A model generated the notes under the pieces. It saw nothing but the letters and a program-made list of their open reading frames with translations. It searched no databases and was not told where the DNA came from. A stretch of 43,332 nt of DNA from Bacteroidales bacterium (GTDB lineage Bacteria > Bacteroidota > Bacteroidia > Bacteroidales > F082): NCBI GenBank assembly GCA_016936505.1, contig JAFGXS010000009.1, forward strand, positions 1-43,332, in the 5' to 3' direction. Both the position numbers and the translations under genes were made by a program. Of this stretch, positions 8,296-42,861 are shown one piece after another (position 1 is the first letter of the stretch; each line of letters begins with the position of its first letter).

Positions 8296-9741
8296 CTATT
8301 CTGTTTTCGACCTTTTCACCAGAAGTATCACGTTTTCCACATGATGAGTCTGAGGAAACATATCTACCGGCTGCACTTTTTTAATCTCGTACAGGGCATC
8401 CATTTCTGCTATGTCGCGGGCCTGAGTTGCCGGATTGCAGCTTACATAAACAATCTTTTCGGGAGCAGCTTTTAAAATCTGTTGTATTACTTTTGGATGC
8501 ATCCCGGCACGGGGCGGGTCAGTAACAATGATATCAGGTTGTCCGTGTGTGCTCAGAAAGTTTTCATCCAGCAACTTGGCCATATCTCCTGCATGAAAAG
8601 AAACATTGTTTATTTCGTTCTCTTCAGCATTCTTGCGGGCATGTATTACTGCTTCTTTCACCGACTCAATTCCGATTACTTCCTTCACAAAAGGTGCCAT
8701 AAATAAGGCAATGGTTCCTGTTCCGGTGTATAAATCATATACTTTTTCGTGGCCTTTAAATTCGGCAAAGTCGAAAGCTGTTTTGTAAAGCACATGAGCC
8801 TGTTCGGGATTGGTCTGATAAAAAGACTTAGGGCCAACCTTGAACTGCAACGGTTTTTGTTCGGGAGTAGCACCAGGCATTACTTCAAGATTAAAGTCTT
8901 TCCCTTTGAATAAATGGACATCCAGATCATAAATGACATCATTTACTTTGGTATTGATGACGTACATCAGAGAAGTGATTTCAGGAAATTTCCCGGCAAG
9001 AAATTCCATCATTTCCTGAATGGCAGCCTCATTGTCCTCGCCAAAAATCATAACAACCATCAAATCGCCTGTTGAAGCGGTTCGGATGATTAAGTTGCGC
9101 AGAAAACCTTTTTGTTCTCTTATGTTGTAAAACGACAGTCCTTTTCTTACTCCATATTCTTTTGCAGCCAGACGAATGGCGTTGGAAGGATCTTTTTGCA
9201 AATAGCAGTGATTGATGTCGAGGATTTTATCAAACTTTCCCGGAAGGTGAAAACCCAGCGCTTTCATTTCATTAGCAGGTTTTTCGCCTTCGGTAAAGTC
9301 TTCTGCCTGAAGCCAGCGCTTGTCTGAGAAGGTAAATTCCAGTTTGTTTCTATAGTAAAAAGGGTTTTCCACCCCGATTATGGGCCTGATTTCAGGATAT
9401 GCCACCTTTGCAATATGATCGAGATTATCTTTTACCTGTTTTTCTTTGAAAAACTTCTGGTTGTCATAGTCCATGTGTTGCCATTTGCAACCACCGCAAA
9501 GTCCGAAATGTTCACATTTAGGTTGGCTTCTGTAAGGCGATTTTTTGTACAGTTTGGTAATAACTCCTTCGTAGTTTCCTTTCTTCTTTTTGATTACCTG
9601 AACATCTACCACATCGCCGGGTGCAGCAAACGGAACAAATACCACGCGTTGGTTCACCCTGGCAACGGCTTTGCCTTGTGCTCCTGCATCAATAATTTCA
9701 ATCTCCTTTAATAACGGAAGCGGTGTGTTTCTTCTGGCCAT
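8296..9741 (-). CDS. rlmD: 23S rRNA (uracil-C5)-methyltransferase, RlmD/RumA type
   Basis: SAM-dependent m5U methyltransferase of the RlmD/RlmC/TrmA class, acting on 23S rRNA in the cytosol. It has 481 residues. An N-terminal TRAM domain (about 12-65) is followed by the Fe-S cysteines C76, C82 and C85 (CEHFGLCGGC), with a fourth probably in INHCYLQ. The SAM motif is DLYTGTGTIALF, and the catalytic Cys is in YVSCNPATQARD. DPPRAGMHPKV is the family DPPR motif. The family also includes RlmC and a TRAM-bearing CFA group, so the exact uridine is inferred. A -7 element lies 20 bases upstream. Confidence 0.9.
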   Translation of the reverse strand: MARRNTPLPLLKEIEIIDAGAQGKAVARVNQRVVFVPFAAPGDVVDVQVIKKKKGNYEGVITKLYKKSPYRSQPKCEHFGLCGGCKWQHMDYDNQKFFKEKQVKDNLDHIAKVAYPEIRPIIGVENPFYYRNKLEFTFSDKRWLQAEDFTEGEKPANEMKALGFHLPGKFDKILDINHCYLQKDPSNAIRLAAKEYGVRKGLSFYNIREQKGFLRNLIIRTASTGDLMVVMIFGEDNEAAIQEMMEFLAGKFPEITSLMYVINTKVNDVIYDLDVHLFKGKDFNLEVMPGATPEQKPLQFKVGPKSFYQTNPEQAHVLYKTAFDFAEFKGHEKVYDLYTGTGTIALFMAPFVKEVIGIESVKEAVIHARKNAEENEINNVSFHAGDMAKLLDENFLSTHGQPDIIVTDPPRAGMHPKVIQQILKAAPEKIVYVSCNPATQARDIAEMDALYEIKKVQPVDMFPQTHHVENVILLVKRSKTE

Positions 9742-9760
9742 AAATTTTTTATTTGGGGTG

Positions 9761-9768
9761 CAAAGATA
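9761..9768 (-). promoter_or_regulatory. -7 element for rlmD
   Basis: Minus strand reads TATCTTTG, an exact TAnnTTTG match, 20 bases before the rlmD start. Confidence 0.5.
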
Positions 9769-9790
9769 GTGCTCTTTTTATTTTGAAAAT

Positions 9791-10017
9791 TTAAATCTTC
9801 CAGCGTTCTTCAATGATAATGGTTTTGTTGGTGATGGATGGAATATTCTGCATGATTTGTGCCTGCTGTTGTAATTTTGGAAGATAGCTCAGTACGTAAA
9901 GCTCATGATTTGTTGTAAAAGTACAATTCTTCACCGATCATCTGTTTGCAATAAAGGGGTATTGCCTCAATTGATTTTACCAGATTTGATTCTTTGTTGT
10001 TTAAAAATAGTTTTTGT
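9791..10017 (-). pseudogene. Frameshifted remnant of an unrecognised gene
   Basis: Two overlapping minus-strand frames read like adjacent pieces of one protein. The first (10017 to stop at 9903) contains NNKESNLVKSIEAIPLYCKQ and ends in GEELYFYNKS. The second (9934 to stop at 9791, 47 codons from a GTG) contains NHELYVLSYLPKLQQQ and ends in NKTIIIEERWKI. One frameshift at 9903-9934 would join ELYFYN to HELYVLS. Neither frame has a normal start, and a stop lies directly upstream, so only a C-terminal piece remains. I do not recognise the family. It fills most of the 331 bases between rlmD and the acetyltransferase gene. Confidence 0.35.
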
Positions 10018-10072
10018 TACTTTTATACTTGTGCAATTACTAAATCTAATTCATTAACAAAAAACAGGTGCT

Positions 10073-10549
10073 GTGGAACACAATATCATTCTGAAACTAA
10101 CAGAACCATCTGATCTGGAATATTTTTTCCGATTTCAACTGGATCAGGAAGCAATTCATCTGGCGGCTTTCACATCAGAAAATCCGGCTGATAAAGATGC
10201 TTACATGAGCAAACACAATAAATTATTGAAAGATCCCACTATTAATCACCAAACTATTTTTGTGGGAGAAGAGATTGCCGGAAGTATTTCGAAATTTGAA
10301 ATGGAAGGACACGCTGAAATTGCATACTGGATCGATAAAAAATTCTGGGGCAAAGGAATTGCCACGTCAGCTTTGACAATGTTTTTGAGTTTGGAACATA
10401 CAAGACCGATTTTTGGACGGGTTGCTTTTGATAATATAGGTTCGCAAAGAGTGCTTGAAAAAAACGGCTTTATGAGCATTGGAACGGACAAAGGATATGC
10501 TAATGCACGAAAGGCTGAAATAAAAGAGTATATTTATAAGTTAGGGTAG
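10073..10549 (+). CDS. GNAT-family N-acetyltransferase (RimJ/RimL-like)
   Basis: A 158-residue acetyl-CoA-dependent acetyltransferase. It has the RimJ/RimL pattern: IAYWIDKKFWGKGIATSAL (about 82-100) holds the acetyl-CoA pyrophosphate loop (Q/RxxGxG/A type, here KGIATSA), and VAFDNIGSQRVLEKNGF (about 116-132) is the conserved C-terminal motif. The substrate cannot be read from sequence. The start is a GTG preceded by an AGG-containing purine stretch (near 10066). It stands alone between a gene remnant and a serine hydrolase. Confidence 0.85.
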   Translation: MEHNIILKLTEPSDLEYFFRFQLDQEAIHLAAFTSENPADKDAYMSKHNKLLKDPTINHQTIFVGEEIAGSISKFEMEGHAEIAYWIDKKFWGKGIATSALTMFLSLEHTRPIFGRVAFDNIGSQRVLEKNGFMSIGTDKGYANARKAEIKEYIYKLG

Positions 10550-10676
10550 TGCTGAACCTGATTTGTTATAATTAAAATTTGATGATAAAATGAATTTGCA
10601 AAGCGATTTAATAAAAAAGTGGATTAAGTGAGGGCTGTTGAGTATTTCAGCTTTACAGAATTATAAATAATCATGA

Positions 10677-11723
10677 ATGATTGAACAAATGAGAAAAAAA
10701 ACTATTAAAAACATCATAAGAATAGCATTACTTACAGGTACTCTTATTTCGCTGTACTTTGTTCCCTGGCCAATAGTTAAAGTATGGTTGGCGCCGTTAC
10801 CCGACACTGTTCAGGAACAGGTAAATAAAGTGCATGAGTATGGGTTTGACGGCATTATTGTTTATGTAGACGAAAAAGGTAAAAAACCTGAATTTTACAC
10901 TGCCGGTTTTAAAAACAGAGAAAATAAGATACCTGCCGATCCTTATTCTTTGTTCAAAATTGCCAGTGTAAGCAAGTTATATACTGCTGTTTCGATTGCT
11001 AAACTGGTTCACAGCGGACGCCTGTCGTTGGATAGTACACTTGCTTATTATTTTCCTGAACTGGCAGCTAGAATAAAAAATGCTGATAAGATTACCGTAA
11101 GAATGTTGGTTCAACATCGTAGCGGTATTCCCGATTATGTGCGTACTCATAATTATTGGGGTCATCCCAAACAAAACGATAAAGAGCGACTTGATTTAGT
11201 GCTTGATTTACCTGCCCACTTTAAACCTGGTACGGAATACGAATACAGCAACACAAATTATTTGTTACTTTCTAAACTCATAGAAAAAGTTACCGGAGAA
11301 AGTCAGTATCAATACATAAAAGAAAATATTCTGGAACCTTTGCATCTCAAAAACACTTTTGGTTCTATTAAAGATGTGAACCTGGAGGATGTAATGAGTG
11401 GCTATTATGTTGGCTATAAAAGCGACTTAAAAGCAGATGATAATGGTGTTATGCTGGCAACGGCAGAAGATTTGGGTAAATTTATCAGGGCGCTCAATGA
11501 CGGCTCTGTTTTTAAAGATAAAAAAGAGCAGGAAATTTATTCTTCAATATACAACTACGGGCACACAGGCCTGATACCCGGATACCAAACTATAGCCGAG
11601 TATCATAAAGATATTGATGCGGTGGTAATTCAGTTCACCAACACCACTAATTTTGATGGATACAACTGGAATTTATCGGAAATAATGTATCATAGGATAG
11701 TAAAAATATTGAGAAAAAAATAA
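10677..11723 (+). CDS. Membrane-anchored beta-lactamase-fold serine hydrolase
   Basis: A 348-residue class C beta-lactamase/DD-peptidase-like hydrolase. An uncleaved-looking N-terminal TM helix (about 10-30) puts the catalytic domain in the periplasm. The nucleophile motif is SVSK (S97, K100), the second motif is Tyr190-Ser-Asn192 (YEYSNTNY), and the third is HTG at 296-298 in place of KTG, as in many esterase and peptidase members. The substrate (peptidoglycan peptide, D-amino acid ester or other) is unknown; beta-lactam resistance should not be inferred. Starts at 10677 or 10689 are both possible, with no clear ribosome-binding site. Confidence 0.83.
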   Translation: MIEQMRKKTIKNIIRIALLTGTLISLYFVPWPIVKVWLAPLPDTVQEQVNKVHEYGFDGIIVYVDEKGKKPEFYTAGFKNRENKIPADPYSLFKIASVSKLYTAVSIAKLVHSGRLSLDSTLAYYFPELAARIKNADKITVRMLVQHRSGIPDYVRTHNYWGHPKQNDKERLDLVLDLPAHFKPGTEYEYSNTNYLLLSKLIEKVTGESQYQYIKENILEPLHLKNTFGSIKDVNLEDVMSGYYVGYKSDLKADDNGVMLATAEDLGKFIRALNDGSVFKDKKEQEIYSSIYNYGHTGLIPGYQTIAEYHKDIDAVVIQFTNTTNFDGYNWNLSEIMYHRIVKILRKK

Positions 11724-22704: not shown

Positions 22705-24231
22705 TTATTTTTTCTTCAATTTACTGTCCTCAGGACTGCCAACACGACTCATAGCACAACGGAAACCAACAGTAGCTGAAGCTTTGTCTTCATCCATATA
22801 ACGTCGTACACCCGGACTTAGATAATAAGGGCCATCAGCCCACGAACCACCTTTAATCACACGTGATTTATCGTTGATCAGAGTAGTTACACCATAATCA
22901 TACATTTGTTTTGTGCTGTTCTTAAGTTCGTCTTTGTTGGGATTGTTCCAGTCAGACTGAATAGTTGATTCAAAGTCTCCGTCCTTGGCATTGATGTTAT
23001 TTGCCTGAGAATAATTATCTCTTTTTGCCGCTTCTTTAGCGGTGATAGGCAAAAATTCAATGTGTCCAAGACTATCTTTGCGTGCGATGCTCCCATCAGG
23101 ATTTCGTTTAATATTCTTAAACACATTTCCTCGGAAGGGGTTCATATCGCTAACCTCCTGATAAGACATGGGGCGATAAACATCCATTACCCATTCACTT
23201 ACGTTTCCTGCCATGTTGTACAATCCGTAGTCGTTTGGCCAGTACGACATAACAGGAGCCGGAATTGCAGCGCCATCATTCAGATCACCTGCAACACCCA
23301 TAAAATCACCATTATCATCTTTGAAGTTGGCCATGAATTTACCCATGTATTTTTTGCTGTCGTTGCGAAGGCTGGTTCCATTCCACGGATATGTTTTTCT
23401 TTCAACAACTCTGTTCTGAACCGTGTTACCCATAAGCCCAAGGGCTGCAAACTCCCATTCTGCTTCAGTAGGAAGACGGTAATGGGGCAGAAGAATTCCT
23501 TTTTCAAAACTAACTCTTCTTACAACCGAATCGTTTTCCCCTTTCTTTTTGCCAAAGTGGAGCAATCCTTTTTTATTTTCTGGGATCTTACCATTGTACT
23601 GGCCTGCAAGATAAGCCTCGGTATTAAAGCTACTGCTGTCTTTTTGATTTGGATCGTAATCAAGATAGCCTGCTTTGATGAGCAGCATTTCATTTACTCT
23701 GTCGGTACGCCACGATGCATAGGCATTGGCCTGAACCCAACTGACTCCGACAACAGGATATTCGTGGTAAGCCGGATGCCTGAAATAGGTTTCTACCAAA
23801 GGTTCGTTGTAAGCTAATTTATCACGCCACACATTGGTGTCGGGTAATGCTTTTTGAACAACACCAGGATAGTCTTGTCCGTAAACCCTTTGTAACCAGT
23901 GAATATATTCCAGATAGTCAATGTTTCTGACTTCTGTTTTATCCATGTAAAAACTGTTAACGGTTACTTTTCTTGGTTGATTGTCCCATTCATAAAACGG
24001 ACTTTCTTCAGTTGCTCCCATAGTGTAAGTTCCACCTTCAATAAATGCCAGTCCGGGACCGGTTATTTGCTGACGGGCAGGTGCTACCTGAAAGTCTCCG
24101 TTTCTGGGGTCGTTATAGGCCCATCCGGTGGTTTGACTAACCTCCTGACTTCCTTTCTTGCTACAGGATGTTAATGCCATAATTCCGGCAGACAGACTCA
24201 AAACAAACAATAAATTTCTTCTTATGCGCAT
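22705..24231 (-). CDS. gldJ: GldJ, gliding/T9SS lipoprotein with an FGE-sulfatase fold
   Basis: Outer-membrane-associated lipoprotein of the type IX secretion/gliding apparatus; family knowledge places GldJ with GldK in a periplasmic ring-like structure. From the Met at 24231 (508 residues) a type II signal peptide ends in the lipobox LTSC. The rest is a formylglycine-generating-enzyme-like domain: FIEGGTYTMGATEESP, VNSFYMDKTEVRN, VGVSWVQANAYASWRT, YRLPTEAEWEFAA and the C-terminal RVIKGGSWADGPYYLSPGVRR. The frame is open upstream to a TTG at 24282, with another ATG at 24273; I prefer 24231 because the signal peptide then has a normal n-region. It is divergent from porU. Confidence 0.9.
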   Translation of the reverse strand: MRIRRNLLFVLSLSAGIMALTSCSKKGSQEVSQTTGWAYNDPRNGDFQVAPARQQITGPGLAFIEGGTYTMGATEESPFYEWDNQPRKVTVNSFYMDKTEVRNIDYLEYIHWLQRVYGQDYPGVVQKALPDTNVWRDKLAYNEPLVETYFRHPAYHEYPVVGVSWVQANAYASWRTDRVNEMLLIKAGYLDYDPNQKDSSSFNTEAYLAGQYNGKIPENKKGLLHFGKKKGENDSVVRRVSFEKGILLPHYRLPTEAEWEFAALGLMGNTVQNRVVERKTYPWNGTSLRNDSKKYMGKFMANFKDDNGDFMGVAGDLNDGAAIPAPVMSYWPNDYGLYNMAGNVSEWVMDVYRPMSYQEVSDMNPFRGNVFKNIKRNPDGSIARKDSLGHIEFLPITAKEAAKRDNYSQANNINAKDGDFESTIQSDWNNPNKDELKNSTKQMYDYGVTTLINDKSRVIKGGSWADGPYYLSPGVRRYMDEDKASATVGFRCAMSRVGSPEDSKLKKK

Positions 24232-24343
24232 ACTCTGGCTGTTTGTTGTTTTCTTTTGTTCATAAGAACTCATTTCTGCCAATTTTATTGTGGAAAAATC
24301 TTTTTCAATTATAATTGGGCATTAATACATAAGTCCTAACAGG

Positions 24344-24535: not shown

Positions 24536-27500
24536 ATGAAATTCAGAAAATTCTTACTCTATATTTCGTTTTTGCTGATCCCTTTTCAGGGATTTGGTAT
24601 CGACTATTCTTTTCAGGGAAAGATAAACTGGAAACCTGTACAGTATGTCCAACCTGAAAGAGGAAGCGGTTTTTTCAGGCTTGCATTTGATCATGCTTTC
24701 TATCCTGATTGGAATGGGTTGCCGGTTTTTAAAGCATCGATACAGGTTCATACTGCCGATGCAAAGCTTTCTGCAAAACTTTTCCCCGAGCTTGTTGTGC
24801 CTGCTGATTCAGCGGAAACAGCTTTGCTGCATAAACAGTCTTTTGAAGATACATCGTTCCGAATTAAAGTAAATTTTTCAGTTGCCAGAAAACAGCCACT
24901 GGTAATAATACAGGTAAGTCCTGTCAGATGGAATCCTACAAAAGAACAATATGAGAAATTAGTTTCTTTCAATGTTGATATTCAGGTTGTTGATGACACT
25001 TTAGGCGTCGTTCAAAAACAGGCTCTGGTAACCGATCATTGTGTTTTGGCAACAGGTTCGTGGTTTAAAATAAGAATCAACAAAAGCGGAATTTATAAGA
25101 TTACTTACGATGAATTGAAAAACATGGGGTTTCCGCTTGATGGAAGTTCAGCTGATATTGCTTTATATGGCAACGGGGGTGGCGTGCTGCCTGAACAAAA
25201 TAATATTCCTGTTCCGGAGGATCTTACAGAAAACCCGATTGAGGTTGTAGAGGGCGGGGACGGGACATTTGGCCCCGGCGATTATATTCTGTTTTACGGG
25301 CAGGGGCCTGTAACCTGGAATTATGATGCTTCAACGGGATATTTTTCTCATCAGGATAACTATTACAGCGATTATGCTTATTATTTTCTAACATTGAAAA
25401 GTACACCGGGCAAAAGGATTCAGACTCAGACAATGCCCTCAGGAACACCTGATGTTGATGTGAAAAGTTTTTCTGATTATGCCTACCATGAGTTGGATCA
25501 AAGAAATTTGGGTAGCACCGGAAGAACCTGGTATGGTGAAGTGTTTGATTTTACCACCAGCTATACTTTTGATTTTAATTTCCCTAACAGACTTGATACG
25601 ACCAATGTTTTTGTAAAGGCATCGTTGGCTTCAACGGCTCAAAGTACAAATGGTTTTCAGGTATATGGAAATAGTTCGTTACGGAGTTATGTGAGTATTC
25701 CTATAACCGGAACCAGTGGATACGATGTGGGAAAAGGAGCGACAACACAATTTAGTTATAATCCTTCAGACACAGTTGTTTCAATTAATCTGAAGTTTTT
25801 GCGAAATGATGCCGCTTCGGTGGGTTATCTGGATTATATTGATGTGAATGCTCAGCGGGCTCTGATTTTTACAGGGAATCAAATGACCTTTACTAAAGTA
25901 TTCCATACCGGATCACTAGCCAGTTATTATTTAACATCTAATCAACCGGTACAGGTTTGGGATATTACCTATCCCCTGGATGCTCAAAAGGTTTGGTTAA
26001 CCCAACAATCAAACGGATATCAGTTTTCTGAACCGGTATCAACAACGGTTCAGAGATTTATCGCCTTTAATGGAAATGAATATTATAGCCCTGAATTTGT
26101 GGAGCGGGTTCAGAATCAGGATTTACATGCTGTGAAGGATATTGATTATCTTATTGTTGCGTATCCTGAATTTTTGGCGCAGGCAGAAAGGCTGGCTGCT
26201 TATCATGAACAAAAGGACGGGCTAAAGGTTTATGTAACAACGCCCGAAAAAATTTATAATGAGTTTTCTTCAGGTGCACAGGATATTACAGCTATCAGGA
26301 ATTTTGTAAAAAGATTATACGATATCAGCGATCCGGGTCAGGAAATCAAATATCTGTTGCTGTTTGGAGATGCCTCCTATGATTATAAGGACCGTGTGAA
26401 AGATAATACCAACTTTGTTCCCTGCTGGGAAAGTGTTGGTTCTTTAAATTTAATCAGTTCCATTGCCAGCGATGATTATTATGGCTATCTGGATGATGGA
26501 GAAGGAGCAAGCAGTTATGATCGTGTGGATATTGGAATTGGCCGCTTTCCTGTGGATAATGTTGATGAAGCTACAAGAGCGGTTGATAAAATAATCAGTT
26601 ATGAAACTCCTTCGGCTAAGAATATCGGCCCGTGGCGTAATGTGATCACTTTTGTTGCTGATGACGGAGATAACAATACCCATCTGAATGATGCTGAAAA
26701 GCTTTCAACTCTGGTTCAAACACAGAATCCTGCACTCAACATAAAAAAGTTGTACCTGGATGCTTTTCCTCAGGAATCCACTCCCAGCGGACAAAGAGCT
26801 CCGGCTTTAAATGAAGCCATTGATGCCCAAATTGATAATGGAACGCTTATCTTTAATTACTCAGGTCATGGCGGTGTTAATGGTCTGGGACACGAGCGTT
26901 TTGTTCAGTTATCGGATATTAATTCCTGGGATAATTATAATAAACTTTCTGTGTTCATAACAGCAACTTGCGAGTTTACAGCTTTCGATAATCCTGAACT
27001 GGTTTCTGCAGGCGAGTGGACATTTTTCAATCCGAATGGCGGAGCAGTAGCGTTATTTACTACTACAAGAGCAACCTATGCCAGTTCAAATCTGGCTTTG
27101 AATACAGCAATATATAACCACAATATGTTGGAAAAAACAGGTGGACTTTATCCCAGGTTTGGCGATGTTATCCGGCGGTCAAAAATCCTGGGAGGCGATA
27201 ATGACAAAAAGTTTACGTTGATAGGTGATCCGGCTTTAAGGCTGAATTATCCTCAGTGGAGCGCAGTAACTACATCAATTAATGAGCAGCCTCTTGATTC
27301 GGTACAACCTGATACATTGAAAGCATTGTCGAAAGTCAGAATTCGGGGTGAAGTTCTGACTGAATCGGGGCAGTTGGCATCTGCCTATCAGGGAACCTTA
27401 TTCCCAACAATCTATGATAAGGAATCAAAGATTTATACTTTGGGAACCGATAATGACAGTCAGGTTACTTCATTTTTATTGTGGAAAAATATATTGTTTA

Positions 27501-28339
27501 ACGGGAAAGCCGAAATAAACAATGGAAAATTTGATTTCACATTTTTGGTGCCCAAAGACATTGCCTATCAGTACGGAACAGGTAGAATTGCTTATTATTT
27601 TTCAAATGACTCGATTGATGGAAATGGTTCTTCAGAAAATATAATTGTCGGCGGTTTTAATCAGCAGGCTGTTGAAGATACAACAGGCCCTGAAATCAGG
27701 CTTTTTATGAATGATTCAACTTTTATCTCAGGTGGAATTACCGATGAAAATCCCAGTTTGTTTGCTATGGTTAATGATGTAAATGGTATCAACACTTCGG
27801 GAATTGGTATTGGTCATGACATTGTGGCTACTCTTGATAATAATCCGAACAAAAGTTATAATCTGAATGCATTTTATACTGCGTCAGAAGGTGACTATAC
27901 GCATGGAATTGTAACATATCCTTTTCAGAATTTAAGCGTGGGTGAACATACGCTTACGCTGAAGGTTTGGGATTTGTATAACAATTCATCTACTGCAACT
28001 ATTAATTTTATGGTGAAGAGTTCAGGAAGTGAAGTGGTAGAACATTTGCAAAACTGGCCCAATCCTGCCAGGGGAGCAACGGATTTTGTTTTTCAACATA
28101 ACATGGCGGGAAAAGAACTAAAGGTGGAAATAGATATTTACAGTCTGGATGGAAGAAAAATCAGTACAATCAGAAAAACTTTGATTCCGGATGGCTTTAC
28201 TTCCGGAAGGATACATTGGGATGGAACGTCTTATACAGGAGCAAGGCTTGCTGCCGGAATGTATGTTTGCAGGGCGTTAATAACAGCTCCCGATGGTGAA
28301 ACTAAGTCATTGCAAACGAAAATGGTTTTTATTCCATAG
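24536..28339 (+). CDS. porU: PorU, type IX secretion sortase
   Basis: A 1267-residue gingipain-like (peptidase C25) protease that cleaves the C-terminal signal of T9SS cargo at the cell surface and joins the cargo to a lipid carrier. A signal peptide (about 1-21) is followed by a beta-rich N-terminal region and the C25 domain (about 530-900). The catalytic His is H778 in NYSGHGG and the catalytic Cys is C812 in ITATCEFTAFDN. Residues about 1170-1267 resemble a T9SS type A sorting domain (NWPNPARGATDF, GRKISTI, LAAGMYVCRA); PorU is known to keep its own such domain. porV follows 78 bases downstream, supplying the PorV partner. Confidence 0.95.
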   Translation: MKFRKFLLYISFLLIPFQGFGIDYSFQGKINWKPVQYVQPERGSGFFRLAFDHAFYPDWNGLPVFKASIQVHTADAKLSAKLFPELVVPADSAETALLHKQSFEDTSFRIKVNFSVARKQPLVIIQVSPVRWNPTKEQYEKLVSFNVDIQVVDDTLGVVQKQALVTDHCVLATGSWFKIRINKSGIYKITYDELKNMGFPLDGSSADIALYGNGGGVLPEQNNIPVPEDLTENPIEVVEGGDGTFGPGDYILFYGQGPVTWNYDASTGYFSHQDNYYSDYAYYFLTLKSTPGKRIQTQTMPSGTPDVDVKSFSDYAYHELDQRNLGSTGRTWYGEVFDFTTSYTFDFNFPNRLDTTNVFVKASLASTAQSTNGFQVYGNSSLRSYVSIPITGTSGYDVGKGATTQFSYNPSDTVVSINLKFLRNDAASVGYLDYIDVNAQRALIFTGNQMTFTKVFHTGSLASYYLTSNQPVQVWDITYPLDAQKVWLTQQSNGYQFSEPVSTTVQRFIAFNGNEYYSPEFVERVQNQDLHAVKDIDYLIVAYPEFLAQAERLAAYHEQKDGLKVYVTTPEKIYNEFSSGAQDITAIRNFVKRLYDISDPGQEIKYLLLFGDASYDYKDRVKDNTNFVPCWESVGSLNLISSIASDDYYGYLDDGEGASSYDRVDIGIGRFPVDNVDEATRAVDKIISYETPSAKNIGPWRNVITFVADDGDNNTHLNDAEKLSTLVQTQNPALNIKKLYLDAFPQESTPSGQRAPALNEAIDAQIDNGTLIFNYSGHGGVNGLGHERFVQLSDINSWDNYNKLSVFITATCEFTAFDNPELVSAGEWTFFNPNGGAVALFTTTRATYASSNLALNTAIYNHNMLEKTGGLYPRFGDVIRRSKILGGDNDKKFTLIGDPALRLNYPQWSAVTTSINEQPLDSVQPDTLKALSKVRIRGEVLTESGQLASAYQGTLFPTIYDKESKIYTLGTDNDSQVTSFLLWKNILFNGKAEINNGKFDFTFLVPKDIAYQYGTGRIAYYFSNDSIDGNGSSENIIVGGFNQQAVEDTTGPEIRLFMNDSTFISGGITDENPSLFAMVNDVNGINTSGIGIGHDIVATLDNNPNKSYNLNAFYTASEGDYTHGIVTYPFQNLSVGEHTLTLKVWDLYNNSSTATINFMVKSSGSEVVEHLQNWPNPARGATDFVFQHNMAGKELKVEIDIYSLDGRKISTIRKTLIPDGFTSGRIHWDGTSYTGARLAAGMYVCRALITAPDGETKSLQTKMVFIP

Positions 28340-28357
28340 CAGATTAATTAGTTCTTT

Positions 28358-28365
28358 TATATTTG
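28358..28365 (+). promoter_or_regulatory. -7 element for porV
   Basis: TATATTTG matches TAnnTTTG exactly, 52 bases before the porV ATG and 19 after the porU stop. It suggests porV is also transcribed on its own. Confidence 0.45.
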
Positions 28366-28417
28366 TATGATACTAAGATTGATTTTTAAGCGTTAGAGTT
28401 ACAACTATTGAATTTTT

Positions 28418-29617
28418 ATGAAGACAAGATTATTTCTACTTTTTGTTTTATTTGGTTTTGGTACCCAAATTAAAGCGCAAACCAATAATGATGGAAATCC
28501 AATCAGAACAGCAGTTCCTTTTATGATGATAGGCCCCGATGCGAGAGCAGGTGCTATGGGTGACGGCGGTGTCGCAACAAGTCCTGATGCTTATTCCATG
28601 CATTGGAACGCAGCTAAATATGCATTCATCAACGAAGAAAACGGTTTTTCTCTTTCCTATACACCCTGGTTAAAAAATCTAGTCAACGATATCAATCTTT
28701 CTTATTTAACCTATTTTCACCGTTTGAATGACCAGTCTACACTGGCTTTCTCCATGCGTTACTTTTCGATGGGTTATATTACTTTTACGGATCAAACCGG
28801 GAATCCTGTTGGTGATTATAAACCTAACGAATTTGCTATAGACGGTGCTTATGCACGCAAATTATCAGATAATCTGGCTTTGTCGGTAACCGGAAAGTTT
28901 ATTTATTCAAACCTGACAGCCGGTTATAGCACACCTGGTGTTGATAATAGTGCCGGATATTCGGTTGCTGCTGATGTAGCTCTTTATTGGGAAAAAGATG
29001 TAAACTGGTTCCAGTCTATGGATGCGCAATTTGCCTGGGGTCTCCAGATTTCAAATATCGGATCAAAAATATCATATAGTTCGTCAAATATTAAGAGAGA
29101 TTTTATTCCGACAAACCTGCGCTTTGGTCCCAGGTTAACTTTTCATCTGGATCAGTATAATAAACTTTCTTTTAACTTGGATATCAATAAATTGTTGGTT
29201 CCAACCACACCTATATATGAAACTGACAGTACCGGAAGTCCAATAGTTGATGCCGGTGGAAATTATATAATTGCCAAAGGTATGAATCCTGATGTTTCTG
29301 TTGTAAAAGGAATGGTACAGTCGTTTTATGATGCTCCGGGTGGATTTAAAGAAGAAATGCAGGAATTTTACATGTCGTTTGGTGCCGAATATTGGTACAA
29401 TAATGTATTTGCTGTTCGCGGCGGCTACTTTTACGAAAACAAATATAAGGGCGATCGTCAGTATGTTACTCTGGGATTGGGCTTGAGATATAATGTTTTT
29501 GGAATAGATTTTTCCTATTTGATACCGACGGTTTCTTATCAGAACCCGATGGAAAACACACTTCGTTTTAGTTTGGTCTTTAACTTTGGCAGCAATACCG
29601 GCAACAGAAGTTATTGA
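28418..29617 (+). CDS. porV: PorV, type IX secretion outer-membrane shuttle protein
   Basis: A 399-residue outer-membrane beta-barrel (FadL-like fold) that receives cargo from the SprA translocon and delivers it to PorU. A signal peptide (1-21, ending QIKAQ) precedes the family N-terminal motif RTAVPFMMIGPDARAGAMGD (about 30-49) and the TSPDAYSMHWNAAKYAF segment. Alternating beta-strand pattern continues to the end, which closes in RFSLVFNFGSN. The neighbours porU and gldJ make the assignment firm. The downstream gap to the phosphohexomutase holds no clear terminator. Confidence 0.95.
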   Translation: MKTRLFLLFVLFGFGTQIKAQTNNDGNPIRTAVPFMMIGPDARAGAMGDGGVATSPDAYSMHWNAAKYAFINEENGFSLSYTPWLKNLVNDINLSYLTYFHRLNDQSTLAFSMRYFSMGYITFTDQTGNPVGDYKPNEFAIDGAYARKLSDNLALSVTGKFIYSNLTAGYSTPGVDNSAGYSVAADVALYWEKDVNWFQSMDAQFAWGLQISNIGSKISYSSSNIKRDFIPTNLRFGPRLTFHLDQYNKLSFNLDINKLLVPTTPIYETDSTGSPIVDAGGNYIIAKGMNPDVSVVKGMVQSFYDAPGGFKEEMQEFYMSFGAEYWYNNVFAVRGGYFYENKYKGDRQYVTLGLGLRYNVFGIDFSYLIPTVSYQNPMENTLRFSLVFNFGSNTGNRSY

Positions 29618-37998: not shown

Positions 37999-39573
37999 TT
38001 ACTTCTTCGGATAATTAGTAATATCCCTGATATCGTTGTACAAGGGTTTCAGTCGTTTGTACATTCTTCTATAGACTTTATTGAACAACTGATCGTAGAT
38101 TTTAACATTTTCCGGAATAGGCTGATAGGTTTCGCCCACATGGCACATATTTTCAATAGCAATTTCAAAATTGGGATATAGTTTTAACCCCACTGCTGCG
38201 TTGATGGCAGCCCCAAGCGCAGAAGTTTCATAAGTATGCGGTTTTTCTACCGGAAGGTTAAAAATATCTGCAGTAAGCTGCAATGCGTTTTTGCTCTGTG
38301 AACCGCCACCTGAAACTTTTATTTTCTGCATTTTTACTTTAGTGGTTTTCTCGGTTCGTAGTGCTCCGTCTTTCAGTGCATAAGCGATTCCTTCCAAAAT
38401 AGATCGGTACAAATGCGCACGGGTATGAACGTCGCCAAATCCAATTACCGCACCTTTGGCTTCAATTCCAGGTTGTTTCACGCCGGGTGTCCAGTAAGGC
38501 TGTAACATCAGTCCCATTGAGCCCGGAGGAATATCATCGATCATATCATCGAACAGCTCTTCAGGTTCTTTATCGAGTTCTTTAGCCTGTTCCACTTCCT
38601 TGTGTCCAAATTCATTTTTGAACCATTTGATCATCCAGTATCCGCGATAAATCATCACTTCGGTGTTGAAATTATGGGGAATGGCACTTGGGTAGGACGG
38701 GAACATCTTCACTACTTCGAGGTAACGATTGCTCACCGTTTCAATGGTGGCAGTGGTTCCGTAACTCAAACAGCCAATTTCGGGAGAAATTACCCCTGAG
38801 CCCAATAATTCGCAGGCTTTGTCTGCAGCAGCAGCAATGATGGACAATCCTTCAGGAATGCCTGTTTGTTCGGCAGCTTCTGAAGTGATATTTCCAATAA
38901 ATTCAGAAGGATGGACCAGTCTTGCCAGTTTCTTCTTTTCGATGGGAAACATTTTATAATTGATGGACGATTTTTTCGAATACTCATGTTTCTTGTAATC
39001 GAAAGGAATATAACCTACTGTACTTCCCACACTGTCCACAAAGTCGCCGGATAAATGATACAGCAGAAAACCTGACAGCAATAAATATTTGTCCGTTTTT
39101 TTCCAGATTTCGGGTTGGTTCTGACGTATCCAGTTGGCCTCACTTTGTTGAATAGCATAAGTTACCGGATCGTAAGCTCCTGCAATTTTAAATGCGGTTC
39201 GGGCAACTCCGGAAGGCCAGTTGCCTACCTTAGCCATTCGCTGATCAAGCCATACGATGGCAGGCCGAAGTGGTTTCCCGTTTTTATCCAGATTAACAAC
39301 AGTCCCGCGCTGCGTGGTAATGCTCATGCCTTTGAGCCTTTCCGGATCTGCAGGATGTTTTTTGAAGAGGTTTTTTGTTGTCAGGCATAACTGTTCCCAG
39401 AAATAATCAGGTTCCTGTTCGGCATATCCGGGTTGGGTCGAGAAATACGCCTCGATGTGGGTTTTTTCAATAGCCAGAATATTTCCTTTCATATCAATGA
39501 AAGAGGCTCTGATGGATTGTGTTCCCACATCAACGACCAAAACATAAGGTCCCGAATTATCGGAATAACTCAT
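37999..39573 (-). CDS. FGGY-family carbohydrate/polyol kinase
   Basis: A 524-residue cytosolic ATP-dependent sugar or polyol kinase. The first phosphate motif is VVDVGTQSIRASF (13-25), SITTQRGTVV and IVWLDQR (about 84-112) match the FGGY first signature, the catalytic Asp is D251 in AAAADKACELLGSG, and KVSGGGSQSKNALQLTAD is the adenine-binding region. It is not a close GlpK by eye, so the substrate (glycerol, dihydroxyacetone, xylulose or another) is unknown. It is the last gene of the glpD/AGPS-like operon, 10 bases after the AGPS-like stop, which suggests a three-carbon or glyceryl substrate. Confidence 0.88.
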   Translation of the reverse strand: MSYSDNSGPYVLVVDVGTQSIRASFIDMKGNILAIEKTHIEAYFSTQPGYAEQEPDYFWEQLCLTTKNLFKKHPADPERLKGMSITTQRGTVVNLDKNGKPLRPAIVWLDQRMAKVGNWPSGVARTAFKIAGAYDPVTYAIQQSEANWIRQNQPEIWKKTDKYLLLSGFLLYHLSGDFVDSVGSTVGYIPFDYKKHEYSKKSSINYKMFPIEKKKLARLVHPSEFIGNITSEAAEQTGIPEGLSIIAAAADKACELLGSGVISPEIGCLSYGTTATIETVSNRYLEVVKMFPSYPSAIPHNFNTEVMIYRGYWMIKWFKNEFGHKEVEQAKELDKEPEELFDDMIDDIPPGSMGLMLQPYWTPGVKQPGIEAKGAVIGFGDVHTRAHLYRSILEGIAYALKDGALRTEKTTKVKMQKIKVSGGGSQSKNALQLTADIFNLPVEKPHTYETSALGAAINAAVGLKLYPNFEIAIENMCHVGETYQPIPENVKIYDQLFNKVYRRMYKRLKPLYNDIRDITNYPKK

Positions 39574-39583
39574 CTTGTTAATT

Positions 39584-41227
39584 TTAAATTTTTGAACGCA
39601 GCCCCAGTGTGTTTCCCGGGTTTAGTATGCCTTTCGGGTCCAGGTGATCTTTTACCGCCTGCATAAGTCCCATGGCTGTACTTCCCATTTCATTTTCCAT
39701 CCACGGCGCCAGTGCTCTTCCAATGCCATGATGGTGTGAAAGTGAACCGCCGTTTTCATGAATGGTGTCAATCAATCCCTGATGATAAACCCTGTAGTCT
39801 TCCACTTCATCACCTTTTTTCATCGGACTTAAAAATGTAAAATACAAATTGGCACCGTTTTCATAAACATGCGAAATATGCACCATTACATACGATTTCT
39901 CACGGCTTTCAAGGTACGTTCTCACTGCTTTCCACAAAGGTATTAATTTATCCCACGGAACGGCTGTTTCTACCGTGTCGGTCATGATGCCTGCATCCAT
40001 GAGTGGATCGCGCATGTAGGCACTTTCATAGCGCTGTTTCAGCCATTTCTTGGTGGGGCTGCCTCCAATATAAAAACCGTGATGCTTCTTAGCCAGTTTC
40101 TTCATCCTTTTCTTTACCAACAGCGTATAGTTTTTATCTCCTTCGATGGAAACAAACATCAGACACCTGGAATTGTTTTTGTATCCAAGCGTTTTCAGAA
40201 ACTTATCACTCATACTATTCACAAAGCCATTAATTCTGAAAGCGGTTTCGGTTTCCACCGGATCGGAAATACGGAACAGGTGGGGAACGCCGATTTCCGA
40301 CTGCATAGCCTTACGCATCATCAGCGTTGCTGTTTCAAAGTCTTTGAAAATGAAAGAAGCAGAAGCCGTGTTTTTCGGACGGTAAGGCCTGATTTTCAGC
40401 GTTACCTGTGTAATGATGCCCAGACAACCTTCGGAACCGATAAAGGTTTTGTTCAGATCCCAGGCTTCGGCTGATGCCGGATAATCTTTGGTTTGGATGA
40501 TGCCAACAGGCGTAACCACATGCATTGCCAATACCATATCTTCAATTTTACCGTAACCTGTGGATGCCTGACCGGCACCACGGGCGGCAACCCAGCCACC
40601 AACTGTTGAGTATTCAAATGACTGTGGGAAATGGCCGCAGGTATAACCCATTTTGTTCAGGTGCTTTTCCAGTACCGGCCCCATAATACCCGGTTCCACA
40701 GTCACGGTATGATTGATTTCGTTGACTTCCAGAATGCGGTTGAGGTTTTCCGACAAGTCCAGGCTGATGCCGCCCTGGGGCGTTTCCACGCCCCGGGTTA
40801 CGGACGATCGTCCTCCAACCGGTGTTATCGCTAACTTTTCTTTTTCAGCAAAAGCCAGCAACTGCACAATCTCCTGTTCATCTTTCGGATACACCACTAC
40901 ATCAGGAGGCGTTTCAATGCTTTCCTTACGAAGCTTCAATAGTTCTCCAAAGAAATAACCATGTGCATGCAAAGCCCTGTTGTAGTCGTCAGTTTTTACA
41001 TTTTCATTTCCGCAAATTGTTTGCAGTTCATTCAGCTGTTTTTCTGACAGGGCAGGAGCGATGTCGAGTTTTACTTCATCGTCGGAATAGAGATATTTTT
41101 GGTCAAGATCGGCTTCGGTAAGGCCAAATTGTTCTTTTACCAGTGCTCTTACGCCTTCTTCCAGCGGACGGATTTTCTTATCTCCCCAGAGAAAAATGGA
41201 GCGGTATGTGTTTTTTTGTTCAGACAT
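39584..41227 (-). CDS. FAD-binding oxidase, alkyl-DHAP synthase (AGPS)-like
   Basis: A 547-residue flavoenzyme of the VAO/PCMH fold. In animals and some bacteria AGPS swaps the acyl chain of acyl-DHAP for a fatty alcohol, making the ether bond of ether lipids. FAD-binding landmarks are ITPVGGRSSVTRGVE (about 134-148) and STVGGWVAARGAGQASTGYG (about 207-226), which parallels the AGPS STxGGW segment; YESAYMRDPLMDAG (the AGPS Arg-Asp region) and SHHHGIGRA (H498-H500) match AGPS active-site motifs by eye. D-lactate or glycolate oxidase relatives are the alternative. It sits 5 bases after glpD and 10 bases before the kinase. Confidence 0.85.
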   Translation of the reverse strand: MSEQKNTYRSIFLWGDKKIRPLEEGVRALVKEQFGLTEADLDQKYLYSDDEVKLDIAPALSEKQLNELQTICGNENVKTDDYNRALHAHGYFFGELLKLRKESIETPPDVVVYPKDEQEIVQLLAFAEKEKLAITPVGGRSSVTRGVETPQGGISLDLSENLNRILEVNEINHTVTVEPGIMGPVLEKHLNKMGYTCGHFPQSFEYSTVGGWVAARGAGQASTGYGKIEDMVLAMHVVTPVGIIQTKDYPASAEAWDLNKTFIGSEGCLGIITQVTLKIRPYRPKNTASASFIFKDFETATLMMRKAMQSEIGVPHLFRISDPVETETAFRINGFVNSMSDKFLKTLGYKNNSRCLMFVSIEGDKNYTLLVKKRMKKLAKKHHGFYIGGSPTKKWLKQRYESAYMRDPLMDAGIMTDTVETAVPWDKLIPLWKAVRTYLESREKSYVMVHISHVYENGANLYFTFLSPMKKGDEVEDYRVYHQGLIDTIHENGGSLSHHHGIGRALAPWMENEMGSTAMGLMQAVKDHLDPKGILNPGNTLGLRSKI

Positions 41228-41232
41228 GTTGA

Positions 41233-42861
41233 TTAATCTTGTGGCAATGTAAAACGTTGTTCTGCTTTTTCCATTTGTTTTTGAAGTGTTTTTCTGTCCC
41301 AGTGCAGCCTGTCTTTCATTGTATGTGCAATTTTTTCCAGTACGTCTTTTCCGGGATGTCCCAGCGTTCCCAACCCTGTTCTTCTGAACAGTACATCATC
41401 CAGAAACATCGCCGACTCCTGTTCCATTGCATAAACTACTTCAGCCAGAATTTCCCCGTCAGCGTTTAACACTTCAGCTAATTTAGGATTTTCTTTGGCC
41501 ATTTGAAACAATTCGTGTGACTCGGTTCCGTAATTTTTTCCAAGGTAAGTAATGGTTTTTTGCGAAAAGTCGGGATAATCCCTGGCCAGTTTCTCCAGAA
41601 ATTCATCCATGTCAGGAATTTCACATCCTGAAAGAAACTCATTGGAAGTGTTTGAATCGGGAAGCTCTTTTGTCATCTTCTTTTTGATGAGTTCCATCAC
41701 ATTTTCAGCGAGCTGCCTGCTGGTGGTATATTTTCCGCCTTCTAAGGTAATCATGCCGTCGAGTCCTTCGTCAGCGTTGTCGTAGATTTCATATTTTCGG
41801 GACGATTCATAAGAGTTTTCTGTTTCTGTGTCAGCGAGTGGCCTTAATCCACCGTAATAAAACTCAACATCTTCATAACTCAGTTTTACTGCATAATTTT
41901 CATTCACATCATTTAAAAGCTGCATGATGCTTTCTTTGGTAACGCGATAGTCGTCAGGATTGCCATGATATTCTTTGTCGGTAGTGCCGATGAGTGAATG
42001 ATTTCGCCAGGGAATGATCATAATGTGGCGTTCGTTTTTGGTGACCTGCGAAACGGTATGGTTGGCATTCAGTTTTCTTGTGATGATGTGAATACCTTCA
42101 GAACGGCGGATGCTGTGTTGTGTTTCTTCGTGCGCTGCCGTTTTGATGGTGCGATCGGCCCAGGGGCCTGTACAGTTTACAATGATGGGAGCCGAATAGC
42201 TTGCTGTGCTATTCTGGATTTTGTCTTTGACTTCTACACCGGTTATTTTTTTACCCTTTTTTATGAACCCTGTTACTTCGGCATAATTGGAAAGCGCAGC
42301 ACCTTTGGCTTCGGCCGATTTCAGAAATGCCAGGGTCAGCCTTTCGGGAAAGATATTCTGATGATCATAAAATATCATAGACCCCGTCAGGTTGCGTGTG
42401 GGGACAATGCTTTCCAGACTGCGGGTTTCCTGTTTTGAGAGTGACCTGAAATTAGGAATCTTTTTGGAAGGATCGTTGGTGAGTTTTTTGTCGAAACCCA
42501 GTATGTCGTACATTACCATTCCCATGCCCAGCACTACTTTTCCGCTTTTTGAGTCTTTGTAAGTAGGAATCATAAACGGAACCGGGTAAATGAAATTTGG
42601 GGCAATATTGCTCAGTGTTTTGCGCTCTTTTAATGACTCACGGACGAGACCCAGTTCCATATTTTTTAAATAACGCAAACCGCCGTGAATCAGTTTGGAA
42701 GTTGCGGAAGATGTAGCTCCGCCATAATCGGCTTTTTCAAAAAGTGTCACACTAAGCCCTGCAGAAGCTGCTTCATAGGCCAGTGCTGCGCCTGTAATTC
42801 CTCCACCGACAATAATAACGTCAAAGTTGCCGGTTGACTGCTGTTCAATAGTTCGTTTCAT
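41233..42861 (-). CDS. glpD: FAD-dependent glycerol-3-phosphate dehydrogenase
   Basis: A 542-residue membrane-associated flavoenzyme oxidising glycerol-3-phosphate to dihydroxyacetone phosphate, with electrons passing to quinone. The N-terminal FAD site is VIIVGGGITGAALAYEA (15-31), followed by SSATSKLIHGGLRYL (51-65), the GlpD signature. GTTDKEYHG and the C-terminal domain with LEGGKYTTSRQLAENVM complete the family pattern. It is first in the glpD-AGPS-like-kinase operon, so its DHAP could feed the AGPS-like step. The upstream minus-strand GAATTTTG is one base off the -7 consensus. Confidence 0.93.
   Translation of the reverse strand: MKRTIEQQSTGNFDVIIVGGGITGAALAYEAASAGLSVTLFEKADYGGATSSATSKLIHGGLRYLKNMELGLVRESLKERKTLSNIAPNFIYPVPFMIPTYKDSKSGKVVLGMGMVMYDILGFDKKLTNDPSKKIPNFRSLSKQETRSLESIVPTRNLTGSMIFYDHQNIFPERLTLAFLKSAEAKGAALSNYAEVTGFIKKGKKITGVEVKDKIQNSTASYSAPIIVNCTGPWADRTIKTAAHEETQHSIRRSEGIHIITRKLNANHTVSQVTKNERHIMIIPWRNHSLIGTTDKEYHGNPDDYRVTKESIMQLLNDVNENYAVKLSYEDVEFYYGGLRPLADTETENSYESSRKYEIYDNADEGLDGMITLEGGKYTTSRQLAENVMELIKKKMTKELPDSNTSNEFLSGCEIPDMDEFLEKLARDYPDFSQKTITYLGKNYGTESHELFQMAKENPKLAEVLNADGEILAEVVYAMEQESAMFLDDVLFRRTGLGTLGHPGKDVLEKIAHTMKDRLHWDRKTLQKQMEKAEQRFTLPQD

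Follow-up and report, generated by a model that had tools for sequence, protein, structure and literature searches.

A conserved gene trio for a GlpD-like flavoprotein, an AGPS-like protein, and an FGGY-family kinase in Bacteroidales: a possible oxygen-free route for the breakdown of glycerol ethers

Ether lipids occur in animals, anaerobic bacteria, and sediments, and their ether bond is hard to cut. Alkylglycerols are broken down by AGMO in a reaction that consumes oxygen. According to the accessible text of PMC7911779, AGMO is the sole enzyme known to break down these compounds. A Black Sea metagenome study screened homologues of agps, the gene for alkyl-dihydroxyacetone phosphate (alkyl-DHAP) synthase (AGPS), as a sign of alkenyl-ether potential, and cited the Agps of Myxococcus xanthus as a participant in alkenyl-ether formation (PMC11868695, accessible text). 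An AGPS-like gene is also the first in an operon of Pseudomonas aeruginosa reported in 2021, PA3026–PA3024, which encodes a flavin adenine dinucleotide (FAD)-binding oxidoreductase, a glycerol-3-phosphate (G3P) dehydrogenase, and an FGGY kinase, and which is co-activated with phospholipase C and a lipid kinase (PMC8151288). In the accessible part of that paper, the authors' scheme runs from glycerol to alkyl-DHAP, i.e., a guess at synthesis, and the cluster is rare, with 4 complete and 8 similar examples among 1748 genomes. Here, we describe a trio of the same three gene types in a 43,332-nucleotide stretch of DNA from a Bacteroidales bacterium (contig JAFGXS010000009.1 of assembly GCA_016936505.1; hereafter the window, meaning this whole stretch) and propose, tentatively, that it serves the breakdown of glycerol ethers.

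The trio can be set against several known systems. Its middle protein belongs to the same sequence family as eukaryotic AGPS (4bby, 2uuu), and the gene of this predicted enzyme sits beside kinase and GlpD genes. It shares a kinase and a GlpD-type dehydrogenase with GlpK–GlpD glycerol catabolism, but differs at positions E84 and Q246 of the kinase and adds an AGPS-like step. With AGMO it would have the outcome in common, i.e., breakage of alkylglycerols, by a route that would use no oxygen. The likeness to PA3026–PA3024 comes from published annotation rather than from sequence, as the accessible text places the three gene types side by side on one strand; the two sets differ in that the AGPS-like gene comes first in Pseudomonas and that the AraC-type regulator GliR (PA3027) is found there, whereas relatives of the Bacteroidales trio have Crp-like or FadR-like regulators. 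An earlier note on this stretch (the original prediction) had called the operon a candidate new pathway, which is too strong given that the gene set is already known from P. aeruginosa (PMC8151288, accessible text) and has a relative in the ygc cluster of E. coli. The catabolic reading is what the present analysis would add, as a proposal from sequence comparison. Among the literature matches listed, with subscription literature mostly outside the search, no titles or abstract openings propose a catabolic role for such gene sets.

The genes concerned are as follows, in the order of transcription:
41233..42861, minus strand: GlpD-like gene, first in the operon, 542 aa
39584..41227, minus strand: AGPS-like gene, second in the operon, 547 aa
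37999..39573, minus strand: FGGY-family kinase gene, third in the operon, 524 aa
42862..43332, minus strand: region upstream of the GlpD-like gene, reaching the contig edge, with no regulator frame seen

The open reading frame coordinates bear out the single strand and the gaps of 5 bases (AGPS-like to GlpD-like) and 10 bases (kinase to AGPS-like), and co-transcription is predicted from this spacing and strand. The trio is more than a chance arrangement because the frames exceed 500 aa, the Pfam matches lie far above cut-off, and relatives have these three genes together as well. The contig (43332 bases) belongs to a 3.04 Mb assembly that is 91.8% complete, and its edge lies 471 bases upstream of the GlpD-like gene; therefore, the regulator position known from relatives is not visible here. 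A sigma-70-like match at 42946-42917 in this upstream region carries little weight, given that the promoter scan of the window found 7 sites versus 9.5 in shuffled sequences; the terminator scan found 13 versus 5.5, the majority within genes. The closest named relative found in one contig search is a Bacteroidales metagenome-assembled genome (MAG) contig, JAFGYB010000012.1, whose middle protein is 86% identical.

The middle protein resembles AGPS more than the lactate and glycolate oxidases of the wider fold family. It scores 281 bits against the Dictyostelium and 251 bits against the guinea-pig AGPS structure, versus 110 bits against D-lactate dehydrogenase, with 33% identity to guinea-pig AGPS (478 columns), 32% to Dictyostelium AGPS (472 columns), and 22% to E. 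coli GlcD. All three motifs named in the original prediction (STVGGWVAARGAGQAS, YESAYMRD, and SHHHGIG) are present. Guinea-pig AGPS residues R419, R515, Y578, and H615-617 (numbers verified against 4bby), which we take to be active-site residues, correspond to R319, R406, Y462, and H498-500 in the middle protein, while the residues of GlcD at these positions are E, G, H, and G-E-H. Among 30 Bacteroidales trio-type rows, R419 and Y578 are kept in 30/30 and R515 in 29/30 (K in locus L081), and the three histidines (HHH) in all 28 rows that extend that far. The residue table and the accompanying 54-row tree exclude one odd contig (L085) and frames below 450 aa (e.g., L087 and L088), and retain L029 and L066 though they lack the HHH tract. 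In L029, an in-frame TAG cuts the AGPS-like frame (9540-11021, genome G297) short ahead of the HHH tract, through decay or MAG error.

The bit scores and the kept residues support the middle protein as AGPS-like and lead us to reject a glycolate or lactate oxidase identity; the trees concur without being decisive. The 54-row tree, like the kinase tree, is a quick tree with long branches flagged. In a careful 18-row tree, GlcD and YdiJ separate from 16 AGPS-like rows with support 98/99, and the trio, eukaryotic AGPS, and two actinobacterial rows share one fork (80/96). The approximately unbiased (AU) test on this tree rejects neither the joining of the trio with GlcD/YdiJ (p 0.279) nor that with eukaryotic AGPS alone (p 0.084). 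The 18 rows are a reduction of a 19-row tree, redone without GlcE because GlcE, whose branch measured 5.47, drifted among the AGPS-like rows; with it, the same two joinings gave p 0.149 and p 0.286. Thus, the tree leaves the root within the AGPS-like proteins unsettled: the tree criterion set by the original prediction, clustering with AGPS rather than with lactate and glycolate oxidases, is borne out in part, by the split, but the AU test still admits the trio beside GlcD/YdiJ.

The other two proteins depart from their textbook counterparts. The GlpD-like protein has DAO and DAO_C domains above the Pfam cut-off, comes slightly short of the curated GlpD thresholds (PRK12266, 336.9 vs 360 bits; PRK13369, 311.7 vs 352), and retains E. 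coli GlpD R54, Y55, H233, R317, R332, and K354, residues whose numbers and roles in binding the phosphoglycerol are our assumption. T375 was dropped as a GlpD site, since E. coli GlpD shows G there in the alignment. By these comparisons the protein is a predicted FAD-dependent G3P dehydrogenase of a distinct subfamily. The kinase has FGGY_N and FGGY_C domains and lies under the cut-off of all 12 NCBIfam families matched, including GlpK (154.7 bits, cut-off 590.35) and its top scorer, the xylulokinase XylB (270.4 bits, cut-off 380.25). Of the residues that presumably grip glycerol in GlpK (numbered without Met1), E84 and Q246 are replaced by G90 and K252 in the window kinase, and all 23 Bacteroidales trio-type kinases carry G, S, or D at the E84 position, K at Q246, A, S, or M at Y135, and T at F270, while GlpK R83, W103, and D245 are retained. 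The same genome carries a proper GlpK on another contig (C36; 727.8 bits vs 590.35), adjoining another GlpD-like gene.

The trio is a conserved module in the order. Within the genus, the AGPS-like gene was found in 7 of 11 congeners (E 1e-40), and in all seven the GlpD, AGPS-like, and kinase genes stand in identical order, with the GlpD gene of L031 running off its contig. Across 393 genomes of the order, the AGPS-like gene occurs in 24 (E 1e-60); at E 1e-140, a limit below which fragments may drop, 26 genomes have the kinase and 22 the GlpD subfamily. The kinase is found in 20 of the 24 AGPS-bearing genomes versus 6 of the 369 others (Fisher p ~1e-24) and GlpD in 21 of 24 versus 1 of 369 (Fisher p ~1e-30), both uncorrected for kinship; the single exception for GlpD, G379, has a fragment of the AGPS-like gene where a contig ends. 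The trio is contiguous in 14 of the 24; among these, one (G346) has the order kinase-AGPS-GlpD and another (G650) is cut at both contig ends. Kinase and AGPS-like genes without an adjacent GlpD occur in 2 of 24, and neither partner is adjacent in 2 of 24, one of which begins at a contig end. The kinase lies on a separate contig in G391 and G503, and GlpD in G678. Congeners G304 and G305 gave no match to the AGPS-like protein or the kinase.

Some loci of the order and phylum depart from this pattern. G346 has two AGPS-like copies (L034, L036) with a kinase beside each; the GlpD adjoining the first copy is divergent, on a long branch, and a typical GlpD lies on contig C647. In G365, the AGPS-like and GlpD frames (L085, L175) are on unusual contigs, possibly chimeras, whose long frames look repetitive. 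In a phylum sample, 7 of 296 genomes match the AGPS-like protein (1e-40), all but one (G000) from a single family, f38, whose six proteins (L037-L042) were excluded as trio type, with R515 replaced by P and H615 by E in 6/6. In these f38 loci, three genes follow the AGPS-like gene, encoding an unnamed protein of about 360-371 aa, a UPF0261 protein, and a protein resembling creatininase (Pfam assignments from L038, plus the unnamed protein of L042).

Regulators of the relatives give the best evidence for a pathway that touches long acyl or alkyl chains. In E. coli, FadR is a sensor of long-chain acyl-CoA. A GntR protein with a FadR_C domain is encoded upstream of GlpD in six loci from four families (L035, L074, L077, L078, L087, and L174), which lends substance to the lipid link of the original prediction; the one in L035 scores below the cut-offs of two FadR models (184.2 vs 189 bits, NF003444; 180.5 vs 249.2, TIGR02812). 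In 11 other loci, as assigned by clustering and Pfam-checked in four, a Crp/Fnr-like gene lies upstream of GlpD. In 6 of the 7 congener loci, the upstream gene is Crp-like. Divergent from the FadR gene in two loci of one genus is a gene for a TonB-dependent receptor (L035 12907-14835; L077 2649-4580), a candidate for substrate uptake. Immediately upstream of the L086 trio is a POT/MFS gene, and the L034 trio has a Na/Pi cotransporter gene as a neighbour. Neighbour annotation covers a minority of the genes around Bacteroidales trios, so that importers may lie among the rest, and the remaining neighbours scanned include nothing relevant to the pathway.

Taken with the observed gene identities, active sites, clustering, and co-occurrence, these regulators lead us to suggest, with slightly less than even confidence, that the trio serves to break down glycerol ethers, with 1-O-alkylglycerols from ether lipids as the most probable substrates; its substrate, direction, and individual reactions are predicted. 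The FGGY kinase would phosphorylate the free end of a 1-substituted glycerol to give 1-O-alkyl-glycerol-3-phosphate, and the GlpD-like flavoprotein would then oxidize C2 to yield 1-O-alkyl-DHAP. The AGPS-like enzyme would bind alkyl-DHAP and let the fatty alcohol leave with formation of a flavin-DHAP adduct, which may be resolved by water to DHAP or by a carboxylate to acyl-DHAP. DHAP would enter glycolysis, and the alcohol, after oxidation, beta-oxidation. In AGPS, catalysis proceeds through a flavin-substrate (DHAP) adduct that is resolved by an alcohol. The ether would be cut without oxygen because the third step is the AGPS reaction reversed, and such a reversal is plausible because of that adduct chemistry, with water or a carboxylate as the conjectured acceptor.

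Breakdown, which the original prediction gave as its alternative, is the better supported direction, while its first idea, a synthetic pathway fed with DHAP by the kinase and GlpD, is less so given the separate GlpK, the trio kinase's poor GlpK score, and the search for PlsB-type acyltransferases described below. The preference for breakdown arises because a dedicated kinase and GlpD exist beside the separate GlpK, because the kinase is without the residues by which GlpK presumably holds glycerol, because relatives show FadR-type control and are tied to importers, G3P antiterminators, and phospholipase C, and because the genome has eight acyl-CoA dehydrogenase matches, one of three scanned being above a FadE cut-off. 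In P. aeruginosa, co-activation with phospholipase C and a lipid kinase, as described in the accessible text of PMC8151288, fits a release of alkylglycerols upstream.

Wider relatives suggest a recurrent theme. Among the 40 listed of 71 plasmid records with an AGPS-like match, 16 regions were opened, of which 14 were annotated. Eight of these 14 have a nearby kinase (five FGGY, one named GlpK, and two of the YegS/diacylglycerol type), three have GlpD, and six have neither, five of the six instead carrying acyl-ligase, GST, or GMC genes. A plasmid search with the kinase (40 of 124 records listed) gave an AGPS-like neighbour in two of the six regions opened (H42, H43, H67, H65, H64, and H59). 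Gene sets seen among the wider relatives, in which ETF stands for electron transfer flavoprotein, SDR for short-chain dehydrogenase/reductase, and ABC for ATP-binding cassette, are:
Streptomyces fungicidicus, Tsukamurella: AGPS-like, GlpD, YegS/diacylglycerol-type kinase
Microbacterium: AGPS-like, GlpK, GlpD
Enterococcus gilvus: AGPS-like, FGGY kinase, glycerol dehydrogenase, G3P antiterminator
Streptomyces clavuligerus: AGPS-like, SDR, FGGY kinase, G3P antiterminator
Priestia: AGPS-like, SDR, FGGY kinase, MFS transporter
Enterococcus raffinosus: AGPS-like, ETF, SDR, FGGY kinase
Shinella, Roseibium, Paracoccus: AGPS-like, FGGY kinase, sugar-type ABC importer, glycerol or iron-containing alcohol dehydrogenase
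E. coli K-12 (L105 7658-18375): ygcN-ygcE cluster

In the last of these, the AGPS-like YgcU is 27% identical to the window's middle protein and keeps R419, R515, Y578, and HHH, the FGGY kinase YgcE clusters with the kinases of the trio type (support 93, unstarred, in the quick tree) and has the same R..D-K residues, and YgcP is a G3P_antiterm protein; all ygc products are named putative in the record. The cluster differs from the trio in having an SDR (YgcW) and no GlpD, with two flavoprotein genes (ygcQ and ygcR) and ygcNO nearby and ygcS within it. What recurs in these sets is an AGPS-like protein, a kinase, and a candidate oxidizer of glycerol C2, which would be GlpD where phosphorylation comes first and a glycerol-type dehydrogenase or SDR where oxidation does; in either order, the result would be a 1-substituted DHAP, the type of molecule that AGPS binds. 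A wider proposal, that oxygen-independent ether cleavage by reversed AGPS chemistry is widespread (Bacteroidales, PA3026–PA3024, the actinobacterial sets, and ygc) and acts on varied 1-substituted glycerols, seems somewhat less probable than the proposal for the trio itself.

Several observations weigh against the proposed cleavage of alkylglycerols. The regulator in the window's own genus is Crp-like rather than FadR-like, and R515 is not retained in the proteins of Shinella, Roseibium, Paracoccus, and E. gilvus, nor in those of S. clavuligerus and Microbacterium. The partners can also part: GlpD and AGPS-like genes lack an adjacent kinase in 6 of the 24 AGPS-bearing genomes (two at contig ends), and 6 of the 369 others have the kinase but no match to the AGPS-like protein or GlpD, two of these six genomes being 70% and 87% complete. 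In congeners G299 and G300, of which G300 is a single contig, the kinase is present without the AGPS-like gene, GlpD having been sought only beside it (L186 1790-3388 in G299; L185 6963-8621 in G300). The kinase can therefore have work of its own. The GlpD-like protein of the C36 pair scores lower (285.4 vs 360 bits) than that of the trio (336.9), and the trio GlpD might thus still serve plain G3P. In P. aeruginosa, deletion of PA3026–PA3024 left growth normal on rich medium, citrate, glycerol, osmotic media, and Biolog plates, and the accessible text of PMC8151288 does not name alkylglycerols. It does state that no other glpD or glpK was found in non-Pseudomonas strains with the cluster, which fits plain glycerol use, a less likely explanation for the trio here given the separate GlpK in the genome and the failure of the trio kinase to reach the GlpK cut-off.

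The leaving group may also not be a fatty alcohol. The sugar-type ABC importers that accompany the AGPS-like protein, FGGY kinase, and glycerol dehydrogenase in alphaproteobacterial relatives suggest other, polar leaving groups, and catabolism of a polar 1-substituted glycerol or an unusual sugar alcohol by the same three steps, with a sugar, aryl, or short-chain leaving group, would also suit the MFS or "transporter" genes of the Priestia and E. coli relatives, the POT/MFS gene directly upstream of the L086 trio, and the best, though sub-threshold, kinase score to xylulokinase. The FadR_C regulators indicate lipids instead, as does the lipid kinase that Pseudomonas and two actinobacterial loci have in common, and we consider a polar substrate unlikely, though the likeliest of the rival readings. 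Ether-lipid synthesis, in which kinase and GlpD would make DHAP, an acyltransferase acyl-DHAP, and the AGPS-like enzyme would swap the acid for a fatty alcohol, agrees with the conserved AGPS active site, with the role cited for M. xanthus Agps (PMC11868695, accessible text), and with the scheme published for PA3026–PA3024 (PMC8151288, accessible text). However, DHAP is available from glycolysis, quinone-linked oxidation of G3P would be an odd feeder, and a catabolic role seems to fit those relatives that have importers and G3P antiterminators. In addition, the five PF01553 proteins of the 91.8%-complete genome (four above cut-off, one below) include no match to a PlsB-type model at E 1e-12, the sole NCBIfam match at that limit being L111, of the PlsC/AGP type and below cut-off; of nine PF07993 matches, the top two resemble epimerases or dehydratases. 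The fatty acyl reductase domain PF03015 has no match in the genome, a result that carries no weight since its control was silent too. PF09989, which we take to be the domain of PlsA in the PlsA/Ger ether-lipid route, has no match either, while being detected in 4 of 14 control genomes. On balance, synthesis seems rather improbable. More improbable still is that the AGPS-like protein acts as a dehydrogenase, handing electrons from a phosphorylated hydroxy acid or ketose to ETF or quinone, its AGPS likeness reflecting fold and phosphate site. The ETF genes near the AGPS-like gene of E. raffinosus suggest net oxidation there, the ygcQ and ygcR products near ygcU are annotated as putative flavoproteins and presumably ETF-like, other FAD_binding_4 enzymes are dehydrogenases, and the AU test does not reject a joining of the trio with GlcD/YdiJ (p 0.279); against this stand the retention of AGPS R515 and HHH, which GlcD lacks, and the split of GlcD and YdiJ from the AGPS-like rows (98/99).

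If cleavage of alkylglycerols by the trio is correct, recycling of ether lipids by anaerobes could be accounted for by a flavin-based route that needs no oxygen, and the orphan ygc cluster of E. coli K-12 and the PA3026–PA3024 operon would gain a testable role. Such a route would also call for caution in taking bacterial agps matches as proof of ether-lipid synthesis, in the way that such matches are used in the accessible text of PMC11868695.

Other observations concern the surroundings of the trio. In G299, frames resembling the window's ABC-F and YjeF neighbours come after the kinase gene. Elsewhere in the window, a gene on the minus strand (22705-24282) encodes a 525-aa protein with an FGE-sulfatase domain (PF03781), and one on the plus strand (24536-29617) encodes a 1267-aa protein with a Peptidase_C25 domain, immediately ahead of a PorV type IX secretion gene.

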